Source: a bacterium D16-76 (GTDB lineage: Bacteria; Bacillota; Clostridia; Oscillospirales; Acutalibacteraceae). From it: a stretch of DNA of 64,000 nucleotides. Shown in pieces: positions 6,919-21,820 of the stretch. The notes under the pieces are model-generated. The model had not been told where the DNA came from. It was given only the letters and a program-made list of their open reading frames with translations, and did no database searches. The stretch lies in assembly GCA_009917445.1 (NCBI GenBank), contig QZEE01000016.1, positions 1 to 64,000 on the forward strand. The letters run 5' to 3'. Position numbers and translations under genes: made by a program. Each line of letters starts with the position of its first letter. Position 1 is the stretch's first letter.

Positions 6919-8046
6919 ATGATTTGGAGGAAGAAGAGCAACCGAGATGGCTGGATACATATATTTCATATAATTGTGTGCGCGCTTATATATGTTCTGT
7001 TATATATTCTTATTTCTATAGTAGTATCTCATTTTTTCCCCGAAGATGGGGGAAAAACAGCCCCATCCTGGGTTACACCAACAGTAATTTGGGCGCCAGC
7101 CATATTAACCATATTTCTGTGCCGAAAATGGCTTGCAGCGGCACTTTCTGCCTTAAAGGAACGATTGATTGACATGGCTTTTGACAGGCTTAACATAGAT
7201 TCAGACAAGCCTTTCCGTATCCCGCGCACCAAATGGATGCAAAAGCAGGTCTGGGATATGCTCATAGATGATGCGAATTCATATACAGAATTAGCCAGTG
7301 GCGGTACATATATAGCCCATTTTGTGTCGTATTATGACCGTGTAATAGAAGATTTGCAGATGCTGTGCCAGCTGGAAAAGATAAAGGACGATAATTTTTA
7401 TCCACAGAGTGAACTTATGCGTTTGAAAGAAGAATTCCAGCCACGCTTGTGTGATCGGATAATCCAGGAGAAGGAGAGACTGCGCCAGGACATAAAAGGG
7501 CGGTACAAGGACGATCCCGTTAACCGGGAACGGCTAGTCCGGACATTTGAAAGCAATCTGCGAGATTTGTCCGACCGGTATATTCCGCGTACAGCAGTGC
7601 TTGCTGACGATGCTGTCCAGGAATTAAAAAAGGCCGCGGGTATGTATACGGAACTGGCCGGATATGTAGAGGCGGAAAAGCAAGGGATCGCGGCTGTAGA
7701 CCATATGGAAGGGCATGATTTTGAGTATTGGTGTGCCGCTTTGCTGGAAAAGTGCGGCTATACAAACGTAGAAGTAACAAAGGGGAGCGGTGACCAGGGC
7801 GTAGATGTTGTGGGCACGAAAGATGAAATTCGATATGCTGTCCAATGCAAATGCTATTCTTCGAAATTAGGGAACAAGCCTGTACAGGAGGTCTTCGCCG
7901 GGAAGCAGATGTACGGCTGCCAAATTGGGGTGGTCATGACAAACAATACGTTTACACAGGGCGCCGTAGAGCTTGCCGAAACTACAGGCGTGTTATTATG
8001 GGATAGGGAAAAGTTGGAGAGTATGCTTGCGGGCCAAAAAGTTTAA
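6919..8046 (+). CDS. Membrane-anchored Mrr-like restriction endonuclease
   Basis: About 375 residues. Two N-terminal membrane spans (about residues 10-35 and 50-72) are followed by a 180-residue charged, coiled-coil-like region. A C-terminal PD-(D/E)XK domain follows: GHDFEYWCAALLEKCGY, SGDQGVDVV, then AVQCKCYSS, giving the E, D and QxK catalytic set of Mrr/RecB-like nucleases. It should cut DNA, perhaps foreign or modified DNA, close to the membrane. ATG 6919 (or 6910) is chosen because the promoter at 6850-6878 starts transcription near 6885 and GAAGGGG lies at 6901-6907. AT content is higher than in neighbouring genes, which suggests transfer. There is no methylase partner, so this resembles a stand-alone type IV-like defence enzyme. 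Confidence 0.8.
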   Translation: MIWRKKSNRDGWIHIFHIIVCALIYVLLYILISIVVSHFFPEDGGKTAPSWVTPTVIWAPAILTIFLCRKWLAAALSALKERLIDMAFDRLNIDSDKPFRIPRTKWMQKQVWDMLIDDANSYTELASGGTYIAHFVSYYDRVIEDLQMLCQLEKIKDDNFYPQSELMRLKEEFQPRLCDRIIQEKERLRQDIKGRYKDDPVNRERLVRTFESNLRDLSDRYIPRTAVLADDAVQELKKAAGMYTELAGYVEAEKQGIAAVDHMEGHDFEYWCAALLEKCGYTNVEVTKGSGDQGVDVVGTKDEIRYAVQCKCYSSKLGNKPVQEVFAGKQMYGCQIGVVMTNNTFTQGAVELAETTGVLLWDREKLESMLAGQKV

Positions 8047-8097
8047 AACACATACTAAGGAAATAAGCAGTAGGGCCGCAGCTATTTATAATCCACC

Positions 8098-8126
8098 TTG
8101 CAAACCACCCCATCCTATGCTATAAT
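8098..8126 (+). promoter_or_regulatory. ychF promoter
   Basis: TTGCAA (8098-8103), a 17-base spacer and extended -10 TGCTATAAT ending at 8126, 37 bases before the ychF start. Confidence 0.75.
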
Positions 8127-8163
8127 GAAGGCCGAAAATGGAAACAAGGGAGCTGCATAATAG

Positions 8164-9258
8164 ATGAAACTAGGCATCGTCGGCCTGCCCAACGTAGGCA
8201 AAAGTACGCTGTTCAACGCCATCACCGACGCCGGGGCCCAGTCGGCCAATTACCCCTTCTGCACCATCGAGCCCAATGTGGGCGTGGTGTCTGTGCCGGA
8301 CAAGCGCCTGGACAAATTGGCGGAGATGTACGAGCCCGAGAAATTCACCCCCGCCACCATCGAGTTTGTGGACATAGCCGGCCTTGTCAAAGGCGCTTCC
8401 AAGGGCGAGGGCCTGGGCAATAAATTCCTTTCCAATATCCGGGAGGTAGACGCCATCGTCCACGTGGTGCGCTGTTTTGAAAGCGGCGACATCATCCACG
8501 TAGAGGGAAGCGTAGACCCCAAGCGGGACATTGAGACCATTGACCTGGAGCTGGTGCTTTCCGACCTGGAGGTCCTGGACAGGCGCATCGACAAAACCCG
8601 CAAGCTGTTAAAGGCCGACAAAAAATACCAAGCTGAGCTGGACTTTTTCCTCCGCGTCCGCGAAGCCCTGGAAGCAGGCCGTTCGGCCCGCAGCGTAGAG
8701 TGCGACGAGGAGGAGCGCGGGCTTCTGGCCACCGTTTCCCTGCTCACCAACAAGCCCATTATCTTTGCCGCCAATATGAGCGAAGAAGATATTAAAAACG
8801 GCCCCGAGAACAACCCCCATTTCCAAGCCGTGCAGGCCCTGGCCCAAGAGGAGCACGCCGCCGTGCTGCCCATCTGCGCCGAGACCGAAGCCGAGATTTC
8901 CGGCCTTTCCCCCGAGGAAAAGCTGTTGTTCCTAAGCGACATGGGCCTCACCGAATCCGGCTTGGACCGCCTGATCACCGCCTGCTATTCCCTCCTGGGC
9001 CTCATGTCCTACCTTACAGCCGGCAAACCCGAAGTCCGCGCCTGGACCATAGAAAAAGGCACCCGTGCCCCCCAGGCCGCCGGCAAAATCCACACCGATT
9101 TCGAACGCGGCTTCATCCGCGCCGAAGTCGTCTCCTTCGACGACCTCATGGCCTGCGGCTCCATGTCCGCCGCCAAAGAAAAAGGCCTGGTACGCTCCGA
9201 AGGCAAAGAGTACGTCATGCAAGACGGCGACATCGTCCTGTTCCGCTTCAACGTCTAG
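8164..9258 (+). CDS. ychF: Redox-sensitive ribosome-binding ATPase YchF
   Basis: 364 residues, the normal length for YchF/EngD, an Obg-family P-loop NTPase. G1 is GLPNVGKST at about residue 7, G3 is DIAGLVKGASKGEGLG at about 69, and the atypical G4 (NMSEED region near 201) is the NKxE-altered site that gives the family ATP preference. The C-terminal TGS-like end (GFIRAEVVSFDDL, MQDGDIVLFRFNV) is present. The protein binds ribosomes and affects stress responses. It has its own promoter 40 bases upstream and a terminator after it, so it is a single-gene unit. It marks the return to core chromosome after the accessory region. Confidence 0.97.
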   Translation: MKLGIVGLPNVGKSTLFNAITDAGAQSANYPFCTIEPNVGVVSVPDKRLDKLAEMYEPEKFTPATIEFVDIAGLVKGASKGEGLGNKFLSNIREVDAIVHVVRCFESGDIIHVEGSVDPKRDIETIDLELVLSDLEVLDRRIDKTRKLLKADKKYQAELDFFLRVREALEAGRSARSVECDEEERGLLATVSLLTNKPIIFAANMSEEDIKNGPENNPHFQAVQALAQEEHAAVLPICAETEAEISGLSPEEKLLFLSDMGLTESGLDRLITACYSLLGLMSYLTAGKPEVRAWTIEKGTRAPQAAGKIHTDFERGFIRAEVVSFDDLMACGSMSAAKEKGLVRSEGKEYVMQDGDIVLFRFNV

Positions 9259-9409: not shown

Positions 9410-10759
9410 TTATTTTACAACCGTAATCGATTCGATACCATAATAGCGGCAAATCCCCGCCGTCTCCCGGCCGATTCGCTCCCCCGGCACCACCGGCGAC
9501 ACCGCTGGCGGGCAAGCGACCGGCAGCCCCCCGCAGACCCGCCCTACCGCTTGGCCGGCCGGCAGCACCGCCCGCGGCGACAATATGGCCTCCCGTATGG
9601 GCATCACCCGTTCCGGCACACAAAGCCCCGGGGGCCCCATCCCAAGGGCCGGGCGCCGTTGCAGCACCGCCAAAGCCCCCTCAGCCCGCCGCAAATCTTC
9701 CCCCGAGCTTTCTGCCGCCGGCATCAGCACCAGGTAATCCGGGTCGGCATACTCGCACACAACGCCCTCTTTTTCCAAACAAGCCGCCGCCTCCGGCCCC
9801 GTATAGCCAAAAGCCTTTGTTTCCAGGGTGACCTTCAAGGGCTCGTCCCCCGCAAAGCCCCAGCCCCTTGCCCGCAGCCGCCCCTTCATCCCCTCTAGCG
9901 CTTCCGCCAAAGCCCCCAGCCTTTCCGGGTAATCCCCAGCCAAATCGCGGTTTGCCTGGTCTAAAGAGCGCAAAATCAAATAAGAAGGGCTGGTGGACCC
10001 AAACAACGCCATGCCCTCCCGGGCCCCGCTATAAAAAACCGGCCCCGCCCCCCTGCCAATATGCAGGTACGCCCCGCCCGTCAGCACCGGCAGGGTCTTG
10101 TGGGCGCTGTCGCAGCACAAATCAGCCCCCAGGGCCATAGGGTGGCGGTTCTCTTGCAAAAACGCCTGATACGCCCCGTGGGCGTTATCCACCAGCAAAG
10201 GCACGCCCTTTTCATGGGCCGCCAGCGCCAGCGCCTTTATATCCGCGCAATTCCCCAGGTAATCCGGGCTGGTGACATACACCGCCGCCCCGTTAGGCGT
10301 GCGCTCCAAGGCCGCTGAAAGGGCCCCGGGCGAAAGGTCGCAGCGGCATAAGCTGTAGGCGCTGTTTTCCGGATAGAGCCACACCACGTCAAAATCCAGC
10401 AAAGCCGCGGCCGTCAAAAAAGCCTTGTGGGCGTTGCGCCCCGCCAGAATAGCCGGCCGCACCCCCGGTGCCTTTTCCGCAAAAGCCAGCATCGCCAAAT
10501 AGCACATGGCCCGTATGCACTGAGAAGACCCCTCCGTAGAGTAAAGGGTCTGCCCCGCCCCAAAAAGCCGGGCGGCGTTTTTCTCGCTCTCCCGTATAAT
10601 GCCCCCCGGGGCGTACAGGGAATCCGCCCCGCCAATTTCCGTAATGTCCGCCCACTCGCACCCCGTAAGGGCCCGGCCCTTGTGCCCGGGCATATGCATG
10701 CGCACCGGTTCCCGGGCAGCGTAGCGGTCTATAAAATCGCAGATGGGGGTAGAAATCAT
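9410..10759 (-). CDS. Orn/Lys/Arg decarboxylase-family PLP enzyme
   Basis: 449 residues from the ATG at 10757-10759, which overlaps the scfB stop by ATGA. The N-terminus RMHMPGHKGR and EIGGADSLYAPGGII are signatures of the Orn/Lys/Arg decarboxylase group I (SpeA/YaaO-like). The PLP lysine is in DSAHKTLPVLTGGAYLH. It is shorter than arginine decarboxylases and similar to the YaaO/Cad-type proteins of Firmicutes, which lack the wing domain. Substrate (lysine, arginine or another cationic amino acid) cannot be read from sequence. Tight coupling to scfB is unusual: either it shares expression by chance or it has a role linked to the SCIFF peptide. Confidence 0.85.
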   Translation of the reverse strand: MISTPICDFIDRYAAREPVRMHMPGHKGRALTGCEWADITEIGGADSLYAPGGIIRESEKNAARLFGAGQTLYSTEGSSQCIRAMCYLAMLAFAEKAPGVRPAILAGRNAHKAFLTAAALLDFDVVWLYPENSAYSLCRCDLSPGALSAALERTPNGAAVYVTSPDYLGNCADIKALALAAHEKGVPLLVDNAHGAYQAFLQENRHPMALGADLCCDSAHKTLPVLTGGAYLHIGRGAGPVFYSGAREGMALFGSTSPSYLILRSLDQANRDLAGDYPERLGALAEALEGMKGRLRARGWGFAGDEPLKVTLETKAFGYTGPEAAACLEKEGVVCEYADPDYLVLMPAAESSGEDLRRAEGALAVLQRRPALGMGPPGLCVPERVMPIREAILSPRAVLPAGQAVGRVCGGLPVACPPAVSPVVPGERIGRETAGICRYYGIESITVVK

Positions 10760-12135
10760 GGCAGATCCGCCTCTGCCGCTTTCAGCATAATAGCGCACTC
10801 CATGCGCTTTTTAAACAGCTCGCACCCATACCGGTATATGCCGCCAATAGAGCCCGTAGCGTGGTAAGCGTTGGCGGCGCACCCGCCCGCACAGTAGAGC
10901 TTGGCCCAGCAGTCGGCGCAGTCGGGCCGGGCGTAGACGTTGCACCCCCGGAATTCCTCCTGCACCGTGTGATTGGTCACGCCCTCAAACACGCTGCCCA
11001 GCCGGAACTTTTCCTCCCCTACAAACTGGTGGCAGGGGTACAAATCGCCCCAGGGGGTAACGGCCATATATTCCGTGCCCGACCCGCACCCGGAGATGCG
11101 CTTATAAATGCAGGGCCCGCTTTCCAAATCCACCATGTAATGGTAAAAGGTAAAGGGCCGCCCTTCTTTGCGGCGTTCCAGCATTTTCTGGGCCAGCCGC
11201 TCATACTGTTCCATAACAATGGCCTTGTCCTCTTCCGTCAAAGCGGCGGGGTCGCCGGGGGCGCAGACCACCGGCTCCATGCTCAGCTGGTCAAAGCCCA
11301 AATCCAGCATAGCGTCTATGTCCTTCAAAAAGTCGGGGTTCTGGTGGGTAAAGGTGCCCCGCATGTAGTAATCCTTCTCCCCCCGTGCCCGCACCAGCTC
11401 CTGGAACTTCGGCACGACCCGGTCATAGCTGCCCTGCCCCTGGTAGTCCACCCGGTACCGGTCGTGGACTTCCCTGCGGCCATCTAAGCTCAGCACCACA
11501 TTAGACATTTCCCGGTTGGCAAAATCGATCACGTCGCTGTCAATGGACATGCCGTTGGTGGTCAAGGTAAACCGGAAATTCTTCCCCTTTTCCTTTTCAA
11601 TCGTTCGGGCGTAGGCCACCAGGCGTTTCACCACGTCCCAGTTCATCAAAGGCTCGCCGCCGAAAAAATCCACCTCTAAATTATGGCGCCCGCCCGAGTT
11701 TTCTATCAGGAAATCCAGCGCCCGCCTGCCCACCTCAAAGGGCATCAAGGCCCGCTCCCCGTGAAATTTCCCCTGGGAGGCAAAGCAGTAGGCGCAGTTC
11801 AGGTTGCAGGTATGTGCCACATGCAGGCACAGGGCCTTTATGACATTGCCGCCTTTGGCCTTAAAATCCCCGGCCATGGGGGCAAAGGTGTCTGGGGTAA
11901 ACAGCTTGCCGTTTTTTTCTAATTGGCCGATGGCGTCCAGGCAGCTTTCCACTTCCTGGGCGGTAAGCTCGGGCCGGTGGGCGTACTTCCCCAAAATCAA
12001 GGGGACGATCTCTTCCCGGGTCTTCTCCTTATAAACAGCGATGATATCGTAAGCGGCCTCGTCCACTACGTGAATAGAGCCGGAGCAGGTGTCCAGCACA
12101 AGGTTGTACCCGCCCAGTTTATATTGATGTACCAT
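10756..12135 (-). CDS. scfB: Radical SAM SCIFF peptide maturase
   Basis: 459 residues. An N-terminal RiPP-recognition-like region (about 1-90) precedes the radical SAM core with the cluster motif CxxxCxxC in HTCNLNCAYCFASQG at about residue 107. The FFGGEPLMNW block follows. The C-terminal SPASM region is cysteine rich (CGSGTEYM, GDLYPCHQF, CADCWAKLYCAGGCAANAY), giving the auxiliary iron-sulfur clusters. The family (thioether-forming SCIFF maturase) links cysteine sulfur to threonine alpha carbon in the SCIFF precursor. Its precursor scfA lies 83 bases upstream on the same strand, with a hairpin between them. The start at 12135 has AAAGGAACC upstream. Function in the cell of the mature SCIFF peptide is not established. 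Confidence 0.95.
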   Translation of the reverse strand: MVHQYKLGGYNLVLDTCSGSIHVVDEAAYDIIAVYKEKTREEIVPLILGKYAHRPELTAQEVESCLDAIGQLEKNGKLFTPDTFAPMAGDFKAKGGNVIKALCLHVAHTCNLNCAYCFASQGKFHGERALMPFEVGRRALDFLIENSGGRHNLEVDFFGGEPLMNWDVVKRLVAYARTIEKEKGKNFRFTLTTNGMSIDSDVIDFANREMSNVVLSLDGRREVHDRYRVDYQGQGSYDRVVPKFQELVRARGEKDYYMRGTFTHQNPDFLKDIDAMLDLGFDQLSMEPVVCAPGDPAALTEEDKAIVMEQYERLAQKMLERRKEGRPFTFYHYMVDLESGPCIYKRISGCGSGTEYMAVTPWGDLYPCHQFVGEEKFRLGSVFEGVTNHTVQEEFRGCNVYARPDCADCWAKLYCAGGCAANAYHATGSIGGIYRYGCELFKKRMECAIMLKAAEADLP

Positions 12136-12172
12136 AAAAGGTTCCTTTCTGTTTGCATACTCCCATACACAA

Positions 12173-12201
12173 CGAAAAAGTGCCGCCCGTTACGGCGGCA
12201 C
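12173..12201 (-). terminator. Attenuator-type terminator between scfA and scfB
   Basis: On the minus strand GTGCCGCC, loop GTAACG, GGCGGCAC, then TTTTT. Partial termination here would make more peptide transcript than maturase transcript. Confidence 0.8.
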
Positions 12202-12218
12202 AGAAACAAACGGCCGGT

Positions 12219-12368
12219 TTACTTTTCGGCTTTGTTTTCACAGGGCTGGTTTGCAATCCCGCAGCTGGTTTTGCAGGCGGACTGGCAAGAGGTCTGACAT
12301 TCGCCGCAGCCGCCGTTTTTGGCGCTTTCGCACAGGTCGCGGGTGTTGAGTGTTTTAATCATATCCAT
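12219..12368 (-). CDS. scfA: SCIFF RiPP precursor (six cysteines in forty-five residues)
   Basis: 49 residues from ATG 12366-12368 with GGAGGGG upstream. It opens MDMIKTLNTRDLCESAKNGG and then carries the hallmark CGECQTSCQSACKTSCGIAN followed by QPCENKAEK. There are seven cysteines (13, 21, 24, 28, 32, 36, 43); the last six fit the conserved spacing and Cys13 is extra. The peptide is the substrate of ScfB, which installs thioether bonds. SCIFF precursors are nearly universal and highly conserved in Clostridia, unlike most RiPPs. A longer in-frame ORF upstream (to 12656) runs through the repeat and is not real coding sequence. Confidence 0.95.
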   Translation of the reverse strand: MDMIKTLNTRDLCESAKNGGCGECQTSCQSACKTSCGIANQPCENKAEK

Positions 12369-12402
12369 GGTGTCCCCTCCGTTCGGGTAATAGTTTTCCA
12401 TT

Positions 12403-12431
12403 ATTTTAGCATATGGCCGCGTTGTTGTCAA
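12403..12431 (-). promoter_or_regulatory. Strong promoter of scfA
   Basis: On the minus strand TTGACA (12426-12431), a 17-base spacer and TAAAAT (12403-12408), 35 bases before the start codon. Confidence 0.85.
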
Positions 12432-12460
12432 GGGAGGCACAGCGCCAGTACACCCACGTG

Positions 12461-12612
12461 CACAAAAAGGGGTCAAGGGGACCGTGTCCCCTTGTAGGTT
12501 CTTAGGGCGAAGCCCTAAGCGGGGCTGGGGGCAGGGCCCCCAGGTCTTGCCGCAGGCGCGACTTTTGCGCCGGAGGCTCTGCAGGCGTGAGCCGGGAGGC
12601 GAGACAACCACG
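12461..12612. repeat. Intergenic palindromic repeat mosaic
   Basis: Stacked hairpins (AAGGGGACCGTGTCCCCTT, CTTAGGGCGAAGCCCTAAG, GGGGGCAGGGCCCCC, GCGCGACTTTTGCGC). The GGTTCTTAGGGC...GCCCTAAG block is shared with the copies at 30140 and 36640. The gap 12369-13053 otherwise holds only promoters and the inverted repeat below. Confidence 0.7.
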
Positions 12613-12760
12613 AGGTCTTTTTGCCTAATGGGAAAAACAGGGCTCGTTTGGGGCATTGTTGTGTGCTGTGGAAAGGTGGGTGGGATTGTGATTGTCGGCT
12701 AAAAAGTGGGCTGTTTTATTGGGGAAAACTACTAACCGCATAGTTTTGTAAAATGGCAAC

Positions 12761-12835: not shown

Positions 12836-12997
12836 GTGATTTTTGCGGCTGAATGGGTATGAGGGCGCTCTGTGATGAGAAAGGCGGGTGGGCCTGCAGC
12901 CCGGGGCCGGAAGGGGAATTTGCCAAGATGCACAGAAATAGTGCCCACAAATTTACGGGCAAGGCATAAATTTTTTTGAAATAGTGCCCGTGTGCCC

Positions 12998-13041
12998 TTG
13001 CAATTTGTGGGGAAAAGGGGTATAATTTATAAAGTTTATAA
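12998..13041 (+). promoter_or_regulatory. Promoter and candidate auto-operator of the Cys-rich LacI regulator
   Basis: TTGCAA (12998-13003), 17-base spacer, TATAAT (13021-13026). The perfect palindrome TTATAAAGTTTATAA (13027-13041) overlaps the expected transcription start, where a bound repressor would block initiation. Confidence 0.65.
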
Positions 13042-13065
13042 AAACGGCGCGGGGTGTGCAGGCGT

Positions 13066-14133
13066 ATGAAAGCGAAAGAATTAGCGAAAAAGCTGGGGGT
13101 CTCCCCGGCGACGATCTCACTGGTGCTGAACAATAAGCCGGGTATCAGCGATTCCCTGCGCCACTCGCTGCTGGAGAAAATCCAGGAGCTGGGGTGCGAG
13201 AGCATGTGCTGCGAGGGGTGCCTGCCGTCCAACAAAAAAGAGGAGGAGGCCCCAGGGGCCCCGGCGGCCAGGCAGGCTATTGCGTACCTGATTTACACCA
13301 GCAGCGATGAAGCCGACGACCGCTTTGCCTTTTATCCCGCCGTGCTGGAAGGGGCGGAAATGGAGGCCCGGGAAAACGGCTATAACCTGCTGGTGCTGCA
13401 CATGAGCTGCCAGGGCAACGCGAATTTGCGGCGGCTGCTGCAAAACGGCGACACTATGGGGGCCATCATCCAGATCAGCAATGTGGATGAACACACCCTG
13501 GACGACATCCGGAGCCTGGACATCCCCTGCGTGCTGGTGGATTCTTACCGGCCGGACGTGCGGGTGAGCAGCGTTTCCATCAACAACGAGCAGGGCGTGT
13601 TCAGCGCGGTGCGTTATTTAAAGGAAAAGGGCCACCGGGAGATCGGCTATGTGTACAGCGGCCACGACCACGACAGCCAGCGGGAGCGCCGCCGGTGCTT
13701 CCACCAGGCTTTGCTGGAATATGGGCTGCCGGATGAACGGGGGTACTATTTCCAGGCTGGGGCCCAAGAAGACATTTTTGACCCGGACCGCCTGGAAAAC
13801 CTGCTGAAAGCCGCGCCCAAGCTGCCCACGGCCTTTTTGGCGGAAAATGACCGGCAGGCCTGGCGGACCATCAAGGCCCTGGAGCGCTGCGGCTACCGGG
13901 TGCCGGAGGATATTTCGGTGATAGGCTTTGACAACCGGACGATTTGCACCATGGTGGAGCCCAACATCACCAGCATAAAGAATTACCGCCACCTGATGGG
14001 GCGGGAGTGCGTGACCATGCTGCAAAACCTGCAAAGGCTGCGCAAGCGGGGCTTCCAGAACCCGTGCTTGAAGCTGGAGCTGCCTACGGAGCTGGTGGAG
14101 CGCGACAGCGTCCGGGATTTGACAAAAGGCTGA
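13066..14133 (+). CDS. LacI-family regulator with a cysteine cluster in place of the hinge helix
   Basis: 355 residues from ATG 13066 (a GTG at 13054 would add four). Residues 1-45 are a typical LacI helix-turn-helix (KAKELAKKLGVSPATISLVL). The usual hinge helix (YxPNxxAxxL) is absent. In its place lies GCESMCCEGCLPS with four cysteines, followed by an acidic and alanine-rich linker. Residues from about 70 form the periplasmic-binding-protein-like sensor (GDTMGAIIQIS, PEDISVIGFDN). Loss of the hinge suggests altered DNA contact, and the cysteines could bind metal or sense redox; both are inference. TTTATAA palindromes at its own promoter and at the downstream peptide promoter suggest it controls both. 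Confidence 0.85.
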   Translation: MKAKELAKKLGVSPATISLVLNNKPGISDSLRHSLLEKIQELGCESMCCEGCLPSNKKEEEAPGAPAARQAIAYLIYTSSDEADDRFAFYPAVLEGAEMEARENGYNLLVLHMSCQGNANLRRLLQNGDTMGAIIQISNVDEHTLDDIRSLDIPCVLVDSYRPDVRVSSVSINNEQGVFSAVRYLKEKGHREIGYVYSGHDHDSQRERRRCFHQALLEYGLPDERGYYFQAGAQEDIFDPDRLENLLKAAPKLPTAFLAENDRQAWRTIKALERCGYRVPEDISVIGFDNRTICTMVEPNITSIKNYRHLMGRECVTMLQNLQRLRKRGFQNPCLKLELPTELVERDSVRDLTKG

Positions 14134-14199: not shown

Positions 14200-14351
14200 A
14201 TGCCTGGGGGAGTTTGCCCCCTATATAATAGGAAGCGCGGGCGGCCGGGGGGGCGGCTTGAAGGGGTTTGGGAGGGGGCAAAGTGGGCTGTTTTTTCGTG
14301 TTAGTGGACTAAATAGATAAAAACAGCAGGATGTAAACGGTGTTTTTGGCG

Positions 14352-14426
14352 TTTATAAACTTTTCTAAATTTTTTCGAAAATACTTTATAAAAACCCTTG
14401 ACATCTTTATAAACTTGGTTTATAAT
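14352..14426 (+). promoter_or_regulatory. Promoter and operator cluster of the three-peptide operon
   Basis: TTGACA (14398-14403), 17-base spacer, TATAAT (14421-14426) is a consensus promoter. Between and over these elements lies the perfect palindrome TTATAAACTTGGTTTATAA (14407-14425). Two further TTTATAAA words lie upstream at 14352-14359 (within GTTTATAAAC) and 14385-14392. Similar palindromes flank the LacI-type gene start, so that regulator is the likely binder. Confidence 0.75.
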
Positions 14427-14501
14427 AAGCACGTAAGCTAAAGAGAACAAGAGAGCGAACCACACAAAACATCAAAAGACAAGAAGAAAGGGGTAGTATT
14501 C

Positions 14502-14690
14502 ATGAGCAAGAAAGTTGAGACCGGTTACACTTCCAAAATGATAAACAAGGCAGCACATGATAAAAGAAAGGCTGCCCGCAGGGCCGTCAACCTGGCTTCC
14601 GACTTTGACCGCCGGGCAAGGGAGATCGCCAACCGCGATGTTTGTTATGTGAATGTGAACGGAATCGCCGCTCCCGTGTGCCGGCTGTGA
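14502..14690 (+). CDS. Small protein A of an unrecognised three-member family
   Basis: 62 residues from ATG 14502 with GAAAGGGG upstream. It is basic, opens MSKKVETGYTSKMINKAAHD, carries KRKAARRAV, and ends DVCYVNVNGIAAPVCRL. There is no signal peptide or membrane span. It is clearly paralogous to protein C (14981): shared ETxYT near the start, an AHxxRKAAR block, and the ending DVxYxNVNGIxAPVCR. The more diverged protein B keeps only the VxYxNxNGxxxP core. It is first gene of an operon under a consensus promoter with a palindromic operator. I know no family for it. The conserved C-terminus with a penultimate cysteine suggests a released or recognised tail. Confidence 0.75.
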   Translation: MSKKVETGYTSKMINKAAHDKRKAARRAVNLASDFDRRAREIANRDVCYVNVNGIAAPVCRL

Positions 14691-14741
14691 GAACGGCACG
14701 AAACCAACAGTTTGACAACAAAGAATGAGAGGTAATTTACT

Positions 14742-14918
14742 ATGAATAAGCTGTTTAGCACCATTAACCAGAACGCCCAGATGTACAAGGAAGAGCGCGA
14801 GCAGAAGAAGCTGAGCCGCCAGGCCACCACCTTTGAGCGCTTTGCCGGCGAGTTTGCCGACACCCATGTGTCCTACCAGAACATCAACGGCTTTATCCTG
14901 CCCATGCAGGTAGCCTAA
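14742..14918 (+). CDS. Small protein B of the three-member family (58 residues)
   Basis: ATG 14742 follows GAGAGG, and the product is 58 residues ending at TAA 14916-14918. It opens MNKLFSTINQNAQMYKEERE, continues QKKLSRQATTFERFAGEF and ends HVSYQNINGFILPMQVA. Relative to A and C the body has diverged and the cysteine is lost, but V-x-Y-x-N-I-N-G-F-x-x-P is kept at the same distance from the end. Codons are those of highly expressed genes in this window (CTG, CGC, GCC, AAG, AAC). It lies 51 bases after A and 62 before C with no terminator between, so all three are one transcript. Function unknown. Confidence 0.72.
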   Translation: MNKLFSTINQNAQMYKEEREQKKLSRQATTFERFAGEFADTHVSYQNINGFILPMQVA

Positions 14919-14980
14919 ACTCTCGATAGCTTACAAAACAGATTACAACTTACTTTTACTGTGTAAAGGGGATAGATATC

Positions 14981-15163
14981 ATGAGAAAAGCTGAAACTGC
15001 CTACACCGCCCGCATCCAGAACGAGAACGCCCACAAGGCCCGCAAGGCCGCCCGGGTGTCCCGCCGCCAGGCCCGCGCCCTGCAGAACTATGCAGTGGCC
15101 GCCGCCAATGCCGATGTGTTCTACCTGAACGTAAACGGCATCAGCGCCCCGGTTTGCCGGTAA
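14981..15163 (+). CDS. Small protein C of the three-member family
   Basis: 60 residues from ATG 14981 with AAAGGGG upstream. It opens MRKAETAYTARIQNENAHKA, has the basic block RKAARVSRRQAR, then an alanine-rich stretch, and ends DVFYLNVNGISAPVCR with the cysteine next to last. It is the closest paralog of A. The strongly biased codon use and operon position downstream of a consensus promoter argue for real, abundant expression. A terminator follows 60 bases later. The predicted form is a short amphipathic helix plus a conserved tail. I do not recognise the family and assign no function. Confidence 0.75.
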   Translation: MRKAETAYTARIQNENAHKARKAARVSRRQARALQNYAVAAANADVFYLNVNGISAPVCR

Positions 15164-15218
15164 ACCCTTACTTTAGCGTACAAGGACTTTCAACAATACA
15201 TCCTCATCAAAAAGCAGA

Positions 15219-15244
15219 AAGGCCACGGCAACCGTGGTTTTTTT
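15219..15244 (+). terminator. Terminator of the three-peptide operon
   Basis: CCACGG, CAA, CCGTGG followed by seven T residues. Confidence 0.85.
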
Positions 15245-15374
15245 GCTTTTTGCCTGTTTGGGGGCGCAAAAGTTTTTGGGGCGGGCCTGTTGCCAAATGG
15301 GGGGCTGGGCCGTCTATATAGAAAGAGGGGAAAGGGGGAGGTGTTGGGTTTTTCCTAAAAAAATCAAAAAACCA

Positions 15375-15403
15375 TTGGACTTTTCTTCATATTATGCTAC
15401 AAT
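15375..15403 (+). promoter_or_regulatory. Promoter of the SH3 lipoprotein-TrkA operon
   Basis: TTGGAC (15375-15380), 17-base spacer, TACAAT (15398-15403) with a TG two bases before it. Confidence 0.7.
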
Positions 15404-15458
15404 AAACATAGCACAGCATACCGGGGTGGTCCCGGATGGCAAAGGAGGAGTGCAACTT

Positions 15459-15974
15459 ATGAAAAAATGGATGTGCCTTTTGCTTGGCATCTGCACCATG
15501 GCGGCTGTATTGGCCGGCTGCGGCGAAGACGATGAAAAAGATAAAACCAGCAGTACGGGCAGCGGTGTGGGGACAAGCTCGGTAGCGCCGGTAGCGGTTT
15601 CGCCGTCGCCAACGCCGGAGCAGACGGCCAAGGCGGTAAAGGTAAAGGCAGACGACGGGCTGAACGTGCGCTCGAAGGCGTCTACCGACTGCGAGGTGTA
15701 CGGCCTGGCCAAGAAGGGCTCGAAGCTGGCCCTGCTGGTGGAGGACCCCAAGGACGGCTGGTACCAGGTGTCTTATAACGGCAAGACCGCCTTTGTTTCC
15801 GCAGACTATGTGGAGGTTGCGGAAGTCACCTTGGACGAATACAACAAGCTGAAAGCCGAGGCCGGGAAGGATTCGGCCAGCACCAGCAGCAAGGACGAGG
15901 AGGGCGAGGCTTCCTCAAAGCCCGGAGACGGGGAGGACCCCCAGTCTGGCGGGGACGATGAGGATGGCGAATAA
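15459..15974 (+). CDS. SH3-domain lipoprotein
   Basis: 171 residues from ATG 15459 with AAAGGAGG upstream. A lipoprotein signal ends in the lipobox VLAGC (Cys at residue 20). A serine/threonine/proline-rich spacer leads to a bacterial SH3 domain at about 63-115 (DDGLNVRSKASTDCEVYGLA, GWYQVSYNGKTAFVSADYV). The last 45 residues are acidic and low complexity. SH3 domains of this type bind peptidoglycan or wall peptides, so the protein probably sits on the outer face of the membrane. It is separated by three bases from the first TrkA gene. A link between wall sensing and potassium control is suggested only by this co-transcription. Confidence 0.85.
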   Translation: MKKWMCLLLGICTMAAVLAGCGEDDEKDKTSSTGSGVGTSSVAPVAVSPSPTPEQTAKAVKVKADDGLNVRSKASTDCEVYGLAKKGSKLALLVEDPKDGWYQVSYNGKTAFVSADYVEVAEVTLDEYNKLKAEAGKDSASTSSKDEEGEASSKPGDGEDPQSGGDDEDGE

Positions 15975-15977
15975 GCA

Positions 15978-16598
15978 ATGAATATTTTGATCGTAGGCGG
16001 CGGGCTGCTGGGGCGGCACATGGCAGAGGCTTTGGACGAGCTGGGCCATGAAGTGGCCATTATAGATGAAAACGAAGACAACCTGGCCCAGCTGCGGGCG
16101 GATTTCCAGGGGGCCACGGCCGTGGGCTTCCCTATGGACATGAACGCCTTGCGGGAGGCCGGCATTGAGGGCTGCGACGCGGTGGCCGTGGTGACAAGCG
16201 ACGACAACCTGAATATTGCCGTGGGGCAGATGGCCAAGGGTGTTTTTGGCGTGCCCCAGGTGGTGGCCCGCATTTCAGACCCGGACCGGGAGAGCGTCTT
16301 CCAGGGGGCGGGCCTGCTTACGGCCTGCCCCACCAACATGGCCGCGGACAAGCTGGTGGCAGCGCTGGTGAGCCCTTATCAGGCCCGGCAGGTCACTTTT
16401 GGGGCGGCGACGGTGTCGCTGCAGGCCCGGCCAGTGGAAAAGAAGATGGCCGGCGGCACCACGGCCCAGTTGGAGCCGGCCCCGGGCGAGGGGCTTTTCG
16501 GGGTCATTAAAAAGGGCGGCGGGTTCCGGCTTTTCCAGCAGGACGCCATACCTCTGGAAGCGGGGGACCTGGTGGTGTACAGCCGCTTGATCGACTAA
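15978..16598 (+). CDS. TrkA/KtrA-family potassium uptake regulator (first copy)
   Basis: 206 residues with an N-terminal Rossmann RCK fold (ILIVGGGLLGRHMAEAL with the GxGxxG-type loop, acidic residue in VAIIDENEDN) and a C-terminal TrkA-C domain from about residue 135. RCK proteins gate KtrB/TrkH channels in response to nucleotides and, in some, cyclic-di-AMP bound at TrkA-C. The gene follows the lipoprotein directly and precedes a second RCK gene by 16 bases. The likely membrane partner, KtrB, is encoded separately at 53100-54491. Having two different RCK genes suggests a hetero-octameric gating ring or two channels. Confidence 0.88.
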   Translation: MNILIVGGGLLGRHMAEALDELGHEVAIIDENEDNLAQLRADFQGATAVGFPMDMNALREAGIEGCDAVAVVTSDDNLNIAVGQMAKGVFGVPQVVARISDPDRESVFQGAGLLTACPTNMAADKLVAALVSPYQARQVTFGAATVSLQARPVEKKMAGGTTAQLEPAPGEGLFGVIKKGGGFRLFQQDAIPLEAGDLVVYSRLID

Positions 16599-16614
16599 AA
16601 GGGGGCAAAGGGAT

Positions 16615-17277
16615 ATGCGGATGGTGATTGTGGGCGGGGGCAAGGCCGGGTGGAACCTGGCCCGGGCCCTGCTGGAACGCAGGCACAGCGTAACCTTGAT
16701 TGAGAAGGACCGGGCCCGGTGCCGGGAGTTGGCCAACGACCTGGATGCCGCCATATACCCGGGGGACGGCACCCATGTTTCGGTGCTGGAAGCTGCGGGG
16801 GCCCAGGGGGCCGACTGCGTTATGGCGGTTACGGGGGTGGACCAGGACAATTTGGTGTGCGCCCAGCTGGCCCAGGCCCATTTTGGGGCCAAGAAAGCCA
16901 TTGCCCGGGTGAACGACCCCCGCAACGCCGACACCTTCCGGGCGCTGGGCATACACGACGTGGTGAGCAGCACGGATATTTTGACGAAGATGATTGAGCA
17001 GGAGGCCGACATGGCCCACATGCACCTGATTGCCAGCTTGAACCAGGGCAAGGGGGAGATCAGCTCTTTGACCCTGGGGCCGGACACAGCTTGGGCCGGG
17101 GTGCGCCTGATGGACATGAAGCTGCCAAAGGGGGCGCTGATCGTCTCGGTGATCCGCCAGGGCGAGCTTACGATACCCAACGGCGCGACCGTGCTGGCCC
17201 CAGGCGACGAACTGGTGGCCGTAAGCGAAGAGCGCAGCCAAAAGGCCCTGCGCAAAGTGCTTTCGGAGACCCGGTAG
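16615..17277 (+). CDS. TrkA/KtrA-family potassium uptake regulator (second copy)
   Basis: 220 residues from ATG 16615 after AAAGGGAT. The Rossmann start is MRMVIVGGGKAGWNLARALL, with SVTLIEKDRARC at the second strand; GDGTHVSVLEAAGAQGADCVMAVTG is the usual RCK nucleotide-binding continuation. TrkA-C follows from about residue 140. It is more canonical than the first copy and resembles the CglK/TrkA proteins of Firmicutes. It is co-transcribed with the upstream RCK gene and the SH3 lipoprotein. It presumably gates KtrB in response to cell energy or turgor signals. Confidence 0.9.
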   Translation: MRMVIVGGGKAGWNLARALLERRHSVTLIEKDRARCRELANDLDAAIYPGDGTHVSVLEAAGAQGADCVMAVTGVDQDNLVCAQLAQAHFGAKKAIARVNDPRNADTFRALGIHDVVSSTDILTKMIEQEADMAHMHLIASLNQGKGEISSLTLGPDTAWAGVRLMDMKLPKGALIVSVIRQGELTIPNGATVLAPGDELVAVSEERSQKALRKVLSETR

Positions 17278-17395
17278 GCCGGGTGGTTGGGCTTTGCCCA
17301 AACCCACCAGGGGACTTTGTCCCCTGGACCCCTACCGCCCTTTAAAAAGGGCGGCCCGAAACTTTGAGTTTTTGCGGGGATGGCTGCAGGAAAGA
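17278..17395. repeat. Intergenic nested hairpins
   Basis: Stacked short palindromes: GTTGGGCTTTGCCCAAAC, GGGGACTTTGTCCCC and CCGCCCTTTAAAAAGGGCGG, of the same general style as the other intergenic repeat modules in the window. Confidence 0.6.
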
Positions 17396-17426
17396 GGGCA
17401 GGACTTTTGTAGGCCTGCCCTTTTTG
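17396..17426 (+). terminator. Terminator before perR
   Basis: GGGCAGG and CCTGCCC arms followed by TTTTT. Confidence 0.75.
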
Positions 17427-17464
17427 GTTTTTGGGGAAAAATCAAAAATAAGAATGATTGCTAC

Positions 17465-17493
17465 TTTACAAATGGAAAATCTTGTGTTATAAT
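17465..17493 (+). promoter_or_regulatory. perR promoter
   Basis: TTTACA (17465-17470), 17-base spacer, TATAAT (17488-17493). Confidence 0.7.
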
Positions 17494-17515
17494 AGCCGGG
17501 AAAGGGCGGGAGATT

Positions 17516-17920
17516 ATGGAGAGAAAGGAACATTTCAGCCGCAAGCGCTTGGCCATTTTGGAGGCTTTGAAGGGGACTACCTGCCATCCTACGGCCGACT
17601 GGGTTTATGGCCAGCTGAAGCCCCAATACCCGGATTTGAGCCTGGGCACGGTGTACCGCAATTTGAAGCGGTTTTGCGAATCGGGCCAGGCTATGAGCGT
17701 TGGGGTGATTGCGGGGTATGAGCGCTTTGACGGCAACCCGGCCCCCCATGCCCATTTGGTGTGCCGCCAGTGCGGCGCGGTGGTGGATGTGTGCGGCCTG
17801 CCTATAAGCATGGAAGAGCTGGGGAAGCTTTCGGCCATGACGGGCTGCCAGGTGGAGAGCGCCAGCATCACCCTGAAAGGTTTGTGCGCGGCTTGTGTAA
17901 AGGATGGGAAAACGGCCTAA
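17516..17920 (+). CDS. perR: PerR-type peroxide-responsive Fur-family repressor
   Basis: 134 residues from ATG 17516 after GGGCGGGAG; the longer in-frame ORF would include the hairpins and promoter. The winged helix covers residues 1-80 (GTVYRNLKRFCESG). Metal ligands fit PerR: His in TCHPTADW, Asp in ERFDGNPAPH, the HAH pair and Asp in VVDVCG form the sensing site, and CRQCG plus CAAC form the structural zinc site. PerR represses oxidative-stress genes until peroxide oxidises a ligand histidine. The next gene is a reverse rubrerythrin, a classic PerR target in Clostridia, which supports the call over Fur or Zur. Confidence 0.85.
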   Translation: MERKEHFSRKRLAILEALKGTTCHPTADWVYGQLKPQYPDLSLGTVYRNLKRFCESGQAMSVGVIAGYERFDGNPAPHAHLVCRQCGAVVDVCGLPISMEELGKLSAMTGCQVESASITLKGLCAACVKDGKTA

Positions 17921-18002
17921 ACTCTTTTTGTGTGCCCGGCTATTTTAGAAGAAAGGCGTTTACGCTTTTTATAAATTTTGTAAAAATAGGAGGAATTTCG
18001 TT

Positions 18003-18545
18003 ATGAAGAAGTTTGTCTGCCAGATCTGCGGTTATGTGCATGAGGGCGATTCGGCCCCCGAGAAGTGCCCGGTATGCGGCGCTGCGGCTGAGAAGTTTAC
18101 CGAGCAGTCCGGTGAAATGACCTGGGCTGCCGAGCATGTAGTCGGCGTTGCTAAGGGCGTGGACGAGGAAGTTTTGCAGGGCCTGCGGGAGAATTTCGCC
18201 GGCGAGTGCACCGAGGTGGGCATGTACCTGGCTATGGCCCGCGTGGCTCATCGCGAGGGCTATCCGGAAATTGGCCTGTACTGGGAGAAGGCCGCTTTTG
18301 AAGAGGCCGAGCACGCCGCCAAGTTCGCCGAGCTGCTGGGCGAGGTCGTTACCGACAGCACCAAGAAGAACCTGCAGATGCGCGTGGACGCCGAGAACGG
18401 CGCTACAGCCGGCAAGATGGCCATTGCTAAGAAGGCTAAAGAGCTGGGTCTGGATGCCATCCACGACACCGTGCATGAGATGGCCCGGGACGAGGCCCGC
18501 CACGGCAAAGCCTTCAAGGGCCTGCTGGAGCGGTACTTTAAGTAA
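18003..18545 (+). CDS. rbr: Reverse rubrerythrin
   Basis: 180 residues from ATG 18003 with ATAGGAGG upstream. A rubredoxin-like domain comes first ([13 protein letters not shown], then EKCPVCGAA, the two CxxCG iron knuckles), followed by a four-helix diiron domain with [10 protein letters not shown]-like, [11 protein letters not shown] and [13 protein letters not shown] motifs supplying the Glu/His ligands. This order is inverted relative to classic rubrerythrin. Reverse rubrerythrins are NADH-linked peroxide and oxygen reductases in Clostridia and are strongly induced when PerR is inactivated. The TTTTTATAAATTTTGTAAAA stretch just upstream is a plausible repressor site. Codon use is highly biased, as for abundant proteins. 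Confidence 0.94.
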
Positions 18546-18559
18546 GATCTGCACCTGAG

Positions 18560-18592
18560 GAGGGTGGGCTGAGAGGCCTGCCCTCTTTTTTG
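18560..18592 (+). terminator. Terminator of the rubrerythrin gene
   Basis: GAGGGTGGGC and GCCTGCCCTC arms, then TTTTTT. Confidence 0.85.
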
Positions 18593-18697
18593 TTTGTGGG
18601 GGCTTTTTGGGTGTTAAAAGGATTCGCGCTTGCGTTGGGTGCATGGGGTAAGTCCCGGTAGCTAACGCAGGCGCGGATTTTTTGTGGGCAAACTTTA

Positions 18698-18805
18698 TGG
18701 CGCGGGCAGGGCCTTGGTGAACCGCCGGCCTTATAACGCGAGAAGCGAAGCGTGGGATTCTTAAGGGCCGGGGGCCCTTAAGCCGCCGGAGGCAGGTGCA
18801 AAAAC
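18698..18805. repeat. Intergenic repeat module (partial copy)
   Basis: Contains ACGCGAGAAGCGAAGCGTGG, identical to the start of the copy at 36537, then a different hairpin (TTAAGGGCCGGGGGCCCTTAA). The gap 18546-19128 otherwise holds a terminator and one promoter. Confidence 0.7.
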
Positions 18806-18899
18806 GTTTTTTCTATATTTTGGGAATAGTTGCAATAAATTGTGCGATAATTTGGGGATTTGTATAGGGATTTTCCTTAAATATTAAAGAAATAGTCAC

Positions 18900-18928
18900 T
18901 TGATTATCGCTGATATGCGTGGTAAACT
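18900..18928 (+). promoter_or_regulatory. Possible promoter of the solute-import operon
   Basis: TTGATT (18900-18905), 17-base spacer, TAAACT (18923-18928). A 200-base leader follows; a very short frame (GTG 19030, 12 codons after AAAGGAGG) lies in it. Confidence 0.45.
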
Positions 18929-19128
18929 AGTGCACATAGAAATAACGTTATAGTCAAGCGGCCATGTGGACGGGTTTGTTCTGCGGGCCCTTGGCGGGAA
19001 GGGTAGGGGCTGGGCCCCGGAAAGGAGGCGTGTTGTTGGGTTTGGCGGCTGCCGCTGGGAAAAAGTAGGGGCGGCTGGGAAAGAATAAGGGAAAGAGCTT
19101 TTACTTTATTGGTATAGGAGGATGGACC

Positions 19129-20769
19129 ATGACACGGAAAATAACGGCGCTGGTGCTGGTGCTGGCGCTGCTGATGGCTTTAGCAGGCTGCGGGCAGAAA
19201 ACACCGGAGAGCTCGGGGACGGAATCGAAGGCGGGTTCGAAAACGGAATCAAAGACAGGGACGGAGGTTAGCTCGCAGGGGACGGAAAGCGAAGAGCCGG
19301 CTTCCTCGCAGGCTTCACAGGGCGGCGTGCTGCGTATGGTGACGGCAGGCAAGGGCTCGGGTATCGGGTTCCCAGCGGGGTTTGTGGGGTATTATGAACG
19401 GATTTATTCGGACCCGGCGCTGGAATCTTTGGCGCGCATTGGGGCGGACAAGTCCAGCGTGGAGCCCTGGCTGGCGGAGGATATCTCGGTAGACGTGGAG
19501 GGCCTGGAAATGACGGTCACGCTGCGGGAGGGCATCTCCTTTAGCGACGGGACCCCCTTTAACGCGGAAGCGGTGGTGAAAAACTGGGGGTACTACGTGG
19601 AGAACGGCTCGAACCGGTTTAAGAACGTGGAAAGCTTTGAGGCCACCGGGGAGTATGAGGTGAAAGCCAAGCTGACCGAATACGACAACAGCACGGTCTT
19701 GAATACCTGCGTGGAGGGCGGGTGGATGATTTCCCCTACCTTCTATGAGGAAAACGGCGACGACGCGGTGTACACGACGCCTGTGGGCACGGGCCCCTTT
19801 GTGTGCGAAAGCAGCAACCTGGACAGCGAGATCATTTATAAGAAAAACGAGAATTACTGGCAGGAGGGCATGCCTTACCTGGACGGTATCGAGATCACCT
19901 TGTGCTCGGACGCCACGACGGCTATGACCATCTTTAAGAGCGGGGACGCGGATATCCTTTTGTTCCCGGATACTACCCAGGCCCAGGAGCTGCTGGACGC
20001 GGGCTACCATATGCTGGGCAGCGCCGACGCGTATTTCCCCTCTACCTCTGGCTTTACCTTTTCCAGCGGTGTGGAGGGCAGCCCCGTAAGCAACCCGGAT
20101 GTGCGCAAGGCCATTTGCTACGCCATTGACTCGGAGGCCATTGTGGAGGCTTTGGGAGGCGAATTGTACCAGTATACCAACCAGCTGGCGGTGCCGGGGT
20201 CGGAAACCTATAACGATGAGGTGGAGGGCTACCCCTATGACCCGGAAAAGGCTAAGGAGCTTTTGAGCGCCGCGGGCTATGGGGACGGGCTGACTATAAA
20301 GGCTACGGGCTCTGGCGCGGGGGCGGAATCGTTCTTTACCTTGGTGCAGGCGTATTTGGCGGAAGTGGGCGTTACCCTGGAGATCGATCTGGTGGACTCG
20401 GCGGTGTACAACGCCAAGCGCATGGTGGCTGGGGACGACAATTATGACGGCTTGATTATTTTGCAGGGGGCGGCGGTAAAGGAACGGTACTTTGACATGT
20501 TTGGGGAAAGCCCCACCCATTATGCCCGCAGCATGGCCCAGTATGAGGATGTGAACGGGCTGATGGATGTGATCAAGTTCTCGACGGATGAGGATGAGGT
20601 ACATGGGGCGCTGATGGACTTCCAGGAGAAGATCATCGACGAATACTGCCTGATAAAGCCCATGTATATTTCCGGTTACCTGATGTTTGCCACGGACAGC
20701 GTGGCGGACAGCGGCTTGATGGAAACCCACAAGGGCTGGTGGACACCTGCTGCGTGCAAGCTGCAATAG
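19129..20769 (+). CDS. Family 5 extracellular solute-binding lipoprotein
   Basis: 546 residues from ATG 19129 after AGGAGGATGG. The lipobox is MALAGC (Cys at about residue 21), followed by a long Ser/Thr/Glu-rich spacer. The fold matches DppA/OppA family 5: ESLARIGADKSSVEPWLAED, TVTLREGISFSDGTPFNAEAV, VGTGPFVCES and NPDVRKAICYAIDSEAIV. It captures substrate outside the cell for the permeases encoded next. Family 5 proteins import peptides, but also nickel, opines and oligosaccharides. The LacI regulator and two esterases at the end of the locus favour a glycan-like or acylated substrate over plain peptides; this is inference. Confidence 0.92.
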   Translation: MTRKITALVLVLALLMALAGCGQKTPESSGTESKAGSKTESKTGTEVSSQGTESEEPASSQASQGGVLRMVTAGKGSGIGFPAGFVGYYERIYSDPALESLARIGADKSSVEPWLAEDISVDVEGLEMTVTLREGISFSDGTPFNAEAVVKNWGYYVENGSNRFKNVESFEATGEYEVKAKLTEYDNSTVLNTCVEGGWMISPTFYEENGDDAVYTTPVGTGPFVCESSNLDSEIIYKKNENYWQEGMPYLDGIEITLCSDATTAMTIFKSGDADILLFPDTTQAQELLDAGYHMLGSADAYFPSTSGFTFSSGVEGSPVSNPDVRKAICYAIDSEAIVEALGGELYQYTNQLAVPGSETYNDEVEGYPYDPEKAKELLSAAGYGDGLTIKATGSGAGAESFFTLVQAYLAEVGVTLEIDLVDSAVYNAKRMVAGDDNYDGLIILQGAAVKERYFDMFGESPTHYARSMAQYEDVNGLMDVIKFSTDEDEVHGALMDFQEKIIDEYCLIKPMYISGYLMFATDSVADSGLMETHKGWWTPAACKLQ

Positions 20770-20875
20770 CCTCCTTAGACAGCGCAAAGGAGGGGGGCAT
20801 GGGTGTGCCCCCTCCCCTTGCGCGGGAGGGGAAGGCCGCGGTTTTCGATACATAACAAAACAGAAAGGTGACGCC

Positions 20876-21820
20876 ATGTATAAGTATATTGGGAAACGCA
20901 TTTTGCAAATGTTTTTGGCCCTTTTCCTGATTTCGGTATTTGTGTTCGCGCTGCTGCAGATGATACCCGGCGACCCGGTGTACGCCATGCTGGGGGATGA
21001 AATCTCTATAGAACGGCACGACCAGGTGTACCGGGAAATGCGGCTGGACAGGCCTTTGCCGGAACAGTACGCGGTGTGGATGAAGGGGTTTATTGGGGGG
21101 GACATGGGCTACTCTTTCAGCTACCGCAAGCCGGTGGCTGAGCTGGTGGCCGCCAGGCTGCCCACTACGATGTACCTGGGGGTGCTGTCGTCTTTGGTGT
21201 CGGTGGCGCTGGGGGTGCTGTTTGGGGCGGTGACAGCGGTGAAGAGGGGGACGTGGGTGGACAATGTGGTGACGGTCATTTCCAACATTGGGCTGGCTAC
21301 GCCGATTTTTTGGCTGGGCATACTGCTGGTGCTGGTGTTTTCGCTGAAGCTGGGGTGGCTGCCCTCTAATGGGTTTACCTTCCCCTGGGAGGATTTTGGG
21401 TTGAGCGTGCAGCAGACCATTATGCCGGTTATCTGCATGTCTATTGGCGGGGTGGCCTCTTACACCAGGCAGACGCGGTCCAGCATGCTGGAGGTTATAC
21501 GCCAGGATTACATCCGCACGGCCCGATCTAAGGGGCTGCCGGAGGGGCGGGTGATTTGGAAGCATGCGCTGAAAAACGCTTTGATCCCTATTTTGACCTT
21601 GATCGCGGTGACCCTGCGCAACACCATTGCCGGGGCGGCGGTGGTGGAGAACGTGTTTAACATAAACGGCATGGGGAGCTTGATGGTGCAGTGCATTACC
21701 AAGCGGGATTTCCAGCTGGTGCAGGCGTGTATTTTGCTGCTGTCGGCGGTGACATGCGTGTGCAATTTGCTGGTGGACATTGCCTATGCTTACGTAGACC
21801 CCCGGATACGGTTGAAATAG
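20876..21820 (+). CDS. ABC importer permease, DppB type
   Basis: 314 residues. It begins with the family opening MYKYIGKRILQMFLALFLIS and has six membrane spans. The cytoplasmic EAA loop is RSSMLEVIRQDYIRTARSKGLPEGRVIWKHALKNALIP, conserved in DppB/OppB (here given as its two halves, RSKGLPEGRV and KHALKNALIP). It pairs with the DppC-like gene that starts ten bases later. RBS AAAGG lies before ATG 20876. The 100-base gap after the binding protein carries a weak hairpin that may lower permease expression relative to the binding protein. Confidence 0.93.
   Translation: MYKYIGKRILQMFLALFLISVFVFALLQMIPGDPVYAMLGDEISIERHDQVYREMRLDRPLPEQYAVWMKGFIGGDMGYSFSYRKPVAELVAARLPTTMYLGVLSSLVSVALGVLFGAVTAVKRGTWVDNVVTVISNIGLATPIFWLGILLVLVFSLKLGWLPSNGFTFPWEDFGLSVQQTIMPVICMSIGGVASYTRQTRSSMLEVIRQDYIRTARSKGLPEGRVIWKHALKNALIPILTLIAVTLRNTIAGAAVVENVFNINGMGSLMVQCITKRDFQLVQACILLLSAVTCVCNLLVDIAYAYVDPRIRLK

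Follow-up and report, generated by a model that had tools for sequence, protein, structure and literature searches.

What does a bacterial operon contribute to its cell when its only genes encode three tiny paralogous proteins? The window analyzed here, a stretch of 64,000 nucleotides from the Acutalibacteraceae bacterium D16-76, carries such an operon behind the gene for a LacI-family regulator. The three proteins, described at the outset as fitting no named family, indeed match no Pfam, NCBIfam or PHROG model above cut-off, and their best weak matches in these collections lie at E 0.013-0.2. The reading preferred here, held at a probability of about 0.5, is that the operon is a LacI-gated regulatory transcript, probably with a dual function, combining the tiny proteins with a base-pairing RNA.

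The operon is real and its signals are strong. Three ORFs of 62, 58 and 60 residues lie on the plus strand (Table 1), each with its own purine-rich ribosome site (AAAGGGG, GAGAGG and AAAGGGG, respectively) 8-9 nt 5' of the ATG, between a consensus promoter that scores 12/12 and a terminator stem of 21 bp, much as the original prediction had described them. Folding of positions 15161-15255 gives the terminator hairpin with a z of -5.5; a consensus terminator scan listed nothing on the plus strand after the third ORF. The proposed paralogy also holds. The alignment of P0001 with P0003 has E = 1e-11. P0002 reaches no better than 0.06 as a single sequence; against the family profile, whose rows include P0002, it scores E = 2.7e-23. 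Six comparisons with orthologues in the related loci L021, L022 and L023 give dN/dS values of about 0.43, 0.12, 0.25, 0.27, 0.19 and 0.21, and by this measure the three window ORFs are under purifying selection. The P0001/P0003 alignment and dN/dS of about 0.12-0.43 thus place the ORFs beyond chance. A basic body had been ascribed to all three proteins; residue counts bear this out for two of them, while the middle protein is about neutral.

Table 1. Features of the tiny-protein operon and its regulator gene in the window
Feature	Position	Strand	Basis
LacI-family regulator gene, ATG start (ORF list: GTG 13054)	13066..14133	+	Pfam LacI, Peripla_BP_3
Two TTTATAAA boxes in the promoter of the LacI gene (putative autoregulation)	13026..13042	.	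shuffle test and relatives
Three TTTATAAA boxes at 14352, 14385 and 14406, the last inside the -35/-10 spacer	14352..14413	.	shuffle test
Consensus promoter TTGACA-17-TATAAT, also TTGACANNTTTATAAANNNNNTTTATAAT	14398..14426	+	promoter and pattern scans
Tiny protein 1 (P0001), 62 aa, type A	14502..14690	+	ORF, dN/dS
Tiny protein 2 (P0002), 58 aa, type B	14742..14918	+	ORF, dN/dS, AlphaFold model
Tiny protein 3 (P0003), 60 aa, type A	14981..15163	+	ORF, dN/dS, AlphaFold model
Conserved 3' UTR element AACAATACATCCTCAT, candidate base-pairing site	15192..15207	+	alignment, fold, genome search
Intrinsic terminator, 21-bp stem	15208..15252	+	folding

All three window proteins end in a common tail, Y-x-N-[VI]-N-G-x-x-x-P, which was at first thought to be kept while the body diverges. 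Across 21 sequences the tail is more alike overall (mean pairwise identity 43% vs 32% for the body), but types B and C depart from this pattern, with 23% identity in the tail and 25% in the body. An N-terminal box is likewise conserved in the P0001/P0003 type, and column 8 of type A is a threonine in 11 of 11 sequences. In an alignment of 20 members the best kept columns are 51 (Y/F), 53 (N), 54 (V/I), 56 (G), 60 (P) and 41 (A). Two alignments, A9 and A10, were used, both leaving out the partial protein of L024; A10 takes in the diverged fifth ORF of L025 and A9 does not.

AlphaFold predicts a single long helix followed by a C-terminal beta-hairpin for P0003 (mean pLDDT 78.6, pTM 0.40) and the same arrangement for P0002 (mean pLDDT 69.5, pTM 0.33), both pTM values marking modest confidence. 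In the P0003 model the helix runs from residue 2 onward, and the Asn-Gly of the tail sits at the turn of the hairpin in both models. A fold search of the PDB returned 36 matches, none below E 6, and no solved fold matches. The tail was originally proposed to be a released element, a signal or a modification site. This proposal is not supported: the predicted hairpin is continuous with the helix, and no protease, exporter or modifying gene was noticed traveling with the arrays when the ORFs of ten loci were read by eye. A stand-alone tail signal is no longer the first choice, because the tail falls within a predicted helix-hairpin unit and further positions are conserved.

The regulator gene lies directly upstream of the operon, and TTTATAAA boxes are common to its promoter and that of the operon, in line with the expected synteny with a Cys-containing LacI gene. 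Its product contains a LacI helix-turn-helix (PF00356, 29.9 bits, cut-off 27) and a periplasmic-binding-like domain (PF13377, 123.3 bits, cut-off 26.5). It falls under the curated cut-offs of all 19 listed NCBIfam families (CcpA, CytR, RbsR, PurR and others); its best scores there are with the CytR and RbsR models, yet far below the named cut-offs, and its nearest solved structures are CcpA chains. Residues EGCL align to ARGL of CcpA, so that the CcpA-like hinge motif ARxL is missing, as it is from the linkers of the LacI proteins of L021, L022, L023, L026, L035 and L037. The missing hinge is a variant trait and not a defining domain. LacI-family operators are known to carry a central CG, and the absent hinge motif would go with an operator that does without it. 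The window protein therefore has the same domains as the CcpA, CytR, PurR and RbsR group, whereas the TTTATAAA boxes of its system have no central CG and, unlike those regulators, it apparently has one or two target operons.

Several observations concern the genes around the regulator. On the minus strand at 10756-12656, upstream of LacI and in divergent orientation, lie the genes for a six-cysteine SCIFF peptide and for the radical-SAM enzyme that acts as its maturase. The maturase is also found in L022 and was not seen in the other nine of the ten loci read by eye, and a SCIFF linkage was accordingly rejected. Genes that look ThiT-like by eye, or TPP riboswitch sequences, lie a few kb from LacI in several genera (L037 at 7794-7897, L016-L018, L025 and L026); in the window itself, none was noticed beside LacI. 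These neighbors are a possible hint at the LacI ligand or at its ancestry. The ilv or leu genes noticed by eye near the arrays of genomes G221 and G125 were set aside as too few cases.

The boxes suggest a tie between the regulator and the operon. Three TTTATAAA boxes within 14301-14440 are reached in 0 of 2000 shuffles, and two within 12990-13065 in 1 of 2000; the window holds seven in all, five of which lie in the LacI and operon promoters. Among 25 LacI loci, a set that takes in five more distant ones (L038-L041 and L070), the 100 bp upstream of LacI contain at least two boxes in 16, one in four and none in five, one of these five being cut by a contig end. The exact composite promoter TTGACA-NN-TTTATAAA-N5-TTTATAAT occurs in 6 of 398 genomes of the family, at seven places, two of them in G221. 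All six genomes are among the eight that encode this LacI at E up to 1e-75 (Fisher p 5e-12); the promoter and LacI searches each drew 398 family genomes, and the handles shown coincide. Since 77 of the 398 genomes match when two mismatches are allowed, exact matches alone were used. G095 and G334 encode the LacI and have no promoter within two mismatches. Three exact promoters stand away from LacI (one each in G125 and G217, and the second of the two in G221), and all three are followed by tiny paralogues. In a class-wide draw, the exact promoter is found in 1 of 391 genomes, which is D16-76 itself. L025 carries a second, degenerate TTTATAAA promoter at 7120-7178, in the stretch that separates LacI from the true array promoter, and this is perhaps the relic of an older array.

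A LacI gene, a box-bearing promoter and one to five tiny genes recur together among relatives. The synteny count covers 19 of 80 loci, those whose LacI is at least about 40% identical (L021-L037, L066 and L084), leaving out 61 more distant ones. Tiny genes lie directly 3' of LacI in 10 of the 19: three each in L021 and L022, five each in L023 and L025, two each in L027 and L034, one each in L026, L036 and L037, and one in L024 before the contig ends. Two further loci (L035 and L084) have a non-coding RNA in place of the tiny genes, and the remaining seven (L028-L033 and L066), going by their listed ORFs, have neither beside LacI. For L031 (G217) and L066 (G125), the promoter and a tiny array are located elsewhere in the genome.

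The proteins of these arrays are not uniformly alike. A scan of all 80 loci with the first profile gives E below 0.01 in seven (L021-L026 and L037), with L027 at 0.17. The tiny proteins of L034 and L036 are another family, against which the A10 profile gives nothing. Those of G125 and G217 have the core RRQxxxYERFxQExA and another tail, and A10 finds in them a 20-column core at a probability of 33% and E 4.5e-4; the first ORF after the G217 promoter, whose start is uncertain, was left out of alignment A14. Homology of all payloads was consequently set aside, since the null result for L034 and L036 and the weak 20-column core do not establish common descent. An order-wide profile search gave matches at E up to 0.5 in 80 of 394 genomes; the best outside this genome (6e-4) lies inside a 733-aa frame, and four matches in shorter frames, when read, had neither the tail nor a TTTATAAA box. 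The two paralogues of L027 share their last 23 residues and differ in their bodies. At 7805-8794, L025 encodes five tiny paralogues, four of which have an identical last 12 residues (a NVNGYVMSVRLPY-type tail) on different bodies, and this combination points to 3' ends that arose by recent duplication or by gene conversion.

The 3' end of the transcript offers the candidate for an RNA function. The 16-nt element AACAATACATCCTCAT is identical in all five aligned loci (the window, L021, L022, L023 and L026), which belong to two genera, and it is kept in L026 although the tiny protein there is 32% identical to P0003 and the LacI 55% identical. In the window it abuts the terminator and is unpaired in both the minimum-energy and the centroid fold; in L026, four of its 16 bases are paired in the minimum-energy fold and none in the centroid. 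It occurs once in this genome. L025, L027, L034, L036 and L037 lack the element at their 3' ends, and other 3' motifs, noted by eye, are common to G125 and G217 in one case and to L037 and L162 in another. A genome search for complementary sites returned 13, not counting the element's own, where a reversed control gave 18, and for this reason no RNA target is proposed.

In some relatives, the LacI-linked unit encodes an RNA instead. Six loci carry an RNA of about 110 nt with no tiny ORF seen (L035 from Eisenbergiella tayi, L084 from a Lachnospiraceae bacterium, L205, L206, L207 and L212), kept from a search with matches in 39 of 51 genomes, the others being, among those read, mostly short and in the AT-rich promoter part. 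Their TTGACA promoters contain TTTATAAA, with TTCATAAA in its place in the spacer of L084 and L212, and a LacI helix-turn-helix is encoded upstream in five of the six. In all six, the promoter is followed by a small 5' hairpin, a long hairpin, a run of seven to nine cytosines and a terminator-like hairpin; L035 and L084 were folded. Measured on a structure drawn from one of the six sequences, 6 of 16 pairs are changed on both sides in the six-locus alignment and 93.8% of cells pair. The observed value is reached by 0 of 500 shuffles for four of five covariation measures; the fifth, the number of pair types, is not above the shuffles (378 of 500). C-run regulatory RNAs are known in Firmicutes and likewise present an unpaired C run before the terminator, but the Lachnospiraceae-type RNA differs from them in being LacI-linked and in matching no Rfam family. 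Taken together, the comparisons demonstrate LacI-linked, promoter-defined operons with selected tiny proteins, a 3' UTR element of one lineage and a structured non-coding counterpart.

Could the LacI-controlled proteins be the whole output, with the 3' UTR element serving termination, stability or processing? In favor of such a protein-only regulon are the selection on the ORFs, the maintenance of paralogues in one to five copies, a number of complementary sites not above control and the restriction of the element to some arrays. It is nevertheless somewhat unlikely, as 16 of 16 bases are kept between the Acutalibacter-like loci and L026 in a sequence that the terminator stem does not need, and the output of a related unit of LacI and promoter is an RNA that has no tiny ORF. 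Far less probably, the proteins are peptides that the cell secretes or modifies, such as leaderless bacteriocins, signals or RiPP-like precursors, with a tail to be released or recognized. Small size, several paralogues, two basic members and the nearby SCIFF RiPP genes would suit peptides of this kind, but the helices are hydrophilic, there is no family match, no exporter, protease, immunity or modifying gene was noticed by eye in ten loci, and SCIFF was unseen in nine of the ten.

A function related to phages is suggested by another contig of the same genome, C72, of which the region at about 15100-26900 (L133) is phage-like, with an integrase-like ORF (by eye), an RVT_1 reverse transcriptase, an Amidase_2 endolysin and fibre-like ORFs; the region may hold a diversity-generating retroelement. 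Just upstream of the Amidase_2 gene lies P0005, a protein of 58 aa that matches the family profile at E = 2e-5 (hhalign 95.5%, E = 1.6e-8, 31 columns) and is, by these profile comparisons, a probable member of the family. The tiny proteins might then act on a process that phages also target, by interfering with it or by protecting from it, and the prophage would carry a member for its own use. This is improbable, because P0005 is a single case and the arrays are LacI-controlled chromosomal units. Searches of viral contigs, one with P0005 included, found no relative, and the five viral contigs with the promoter pattern contained no family member by eye. Phage records gave two matches to P0005, at E 0.2 and 9, neither of them convincing. 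Among 150 family genomes P0005 has matches in 24 at E up to 0.5, the best outside this genome (0.012) being to a long frame.

Under the preferred reading, that of a LacI-gated and probably dual-function transcript, the dedicated regulator would sense a small molecule as its ligand and probably bind the TTTATAAA boxes of two promoters, its own and that of a single target, as the promoter architecture suggests. With a box between -35 and -10, LacI would repress by blocking RNA polymerase until the ligand releases it. The transcript would then yield a burst of tiny cytosolic proteins, predicted to consist of a long helix and a C-terminal beta-hairpin, that may attach to an enzyme or a transporter and tune it, using the hairpin as their docking face, while the transcript's 3' end, with the conserved element before the terminator, would pair with mRNAs. 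In the Lachnospiraceae-type relatives, the LacI-linked promoter would make an RNA without a visible tiny ORF. This reading draws on the co-occurrence of promoter and LacI, the tiny paralogues behind promoters away from LacI, the synteny, the selection on the ORFs, the helix-hairpin models, the identical 3' element, the compensatory pairs of the RNA and the published precedent of VcdRP. Against it weigh the seven loci with neither payload beside LacI, the genomes G095 and G334, the loci that lack the 16-nt element, the paired bases of the element in L026, the counts of complementary sites and the modest confidence of the structure models.

Known dual-function RNAs provide models for such a locus. 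SgrS/SgrT of E. coli and SR1/SR1P of Bacillus subtilis each combine an RNA function with a small protein on a sugar-linked transcript, with one small ORF in contrast to the tandem family of three in the window. The locus would work like these or like VcdRP, with a separate origin. In Vibrio cholerae, CRP represses vcdRP, which encodes a 29-aa protein that binds the enzyme GltA; the RNA pairs through a conserved 3' stretch containing four cytosines (PMC8672173). VcdRP resembles the window operon in its metabolic regulator upstream and in joining a small protein and a conserved 3' stretch on a single transcript. It differs in having one 29-aa protein as opposed to three of about 60 aa and in its regulator; the likeness proposed is one of mode of action, and the window operon would pair and bind in a similar way. 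By analogy, VcdRP is the closest working model.

In a literature search of incomplete coverage, no listed title deals with this system. The promoter signature, readable across genomes, leads in gut Clostridia to a regulator with essentially one output, to a tiny-protein family that has no name and to a structured RNA that is missing from Rfam. A broader reading is put forward tentatively, as falling short of an even chance: that one LacI clade controls one switchable transcript whose output was exchanged in evolution, between a pure structured C-run RNA in the Lachnospiraceae type and, in Acutalibacteraceae, a dual-function mRNA with rapidly diversifying helix-hairpin proteins and a lineage-specific 3' pairing element, one member having been captured by a temperate phage. 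If true, it would constitute a natural series from small RNA to small-protein regulator, with a single promoter in charge throughout. Few dual-function RNAs are known, most of them from well-studied species. With natural examples of both states, the present set allows one to ask how coding parts are acquired or lost by regulatory RNAs.
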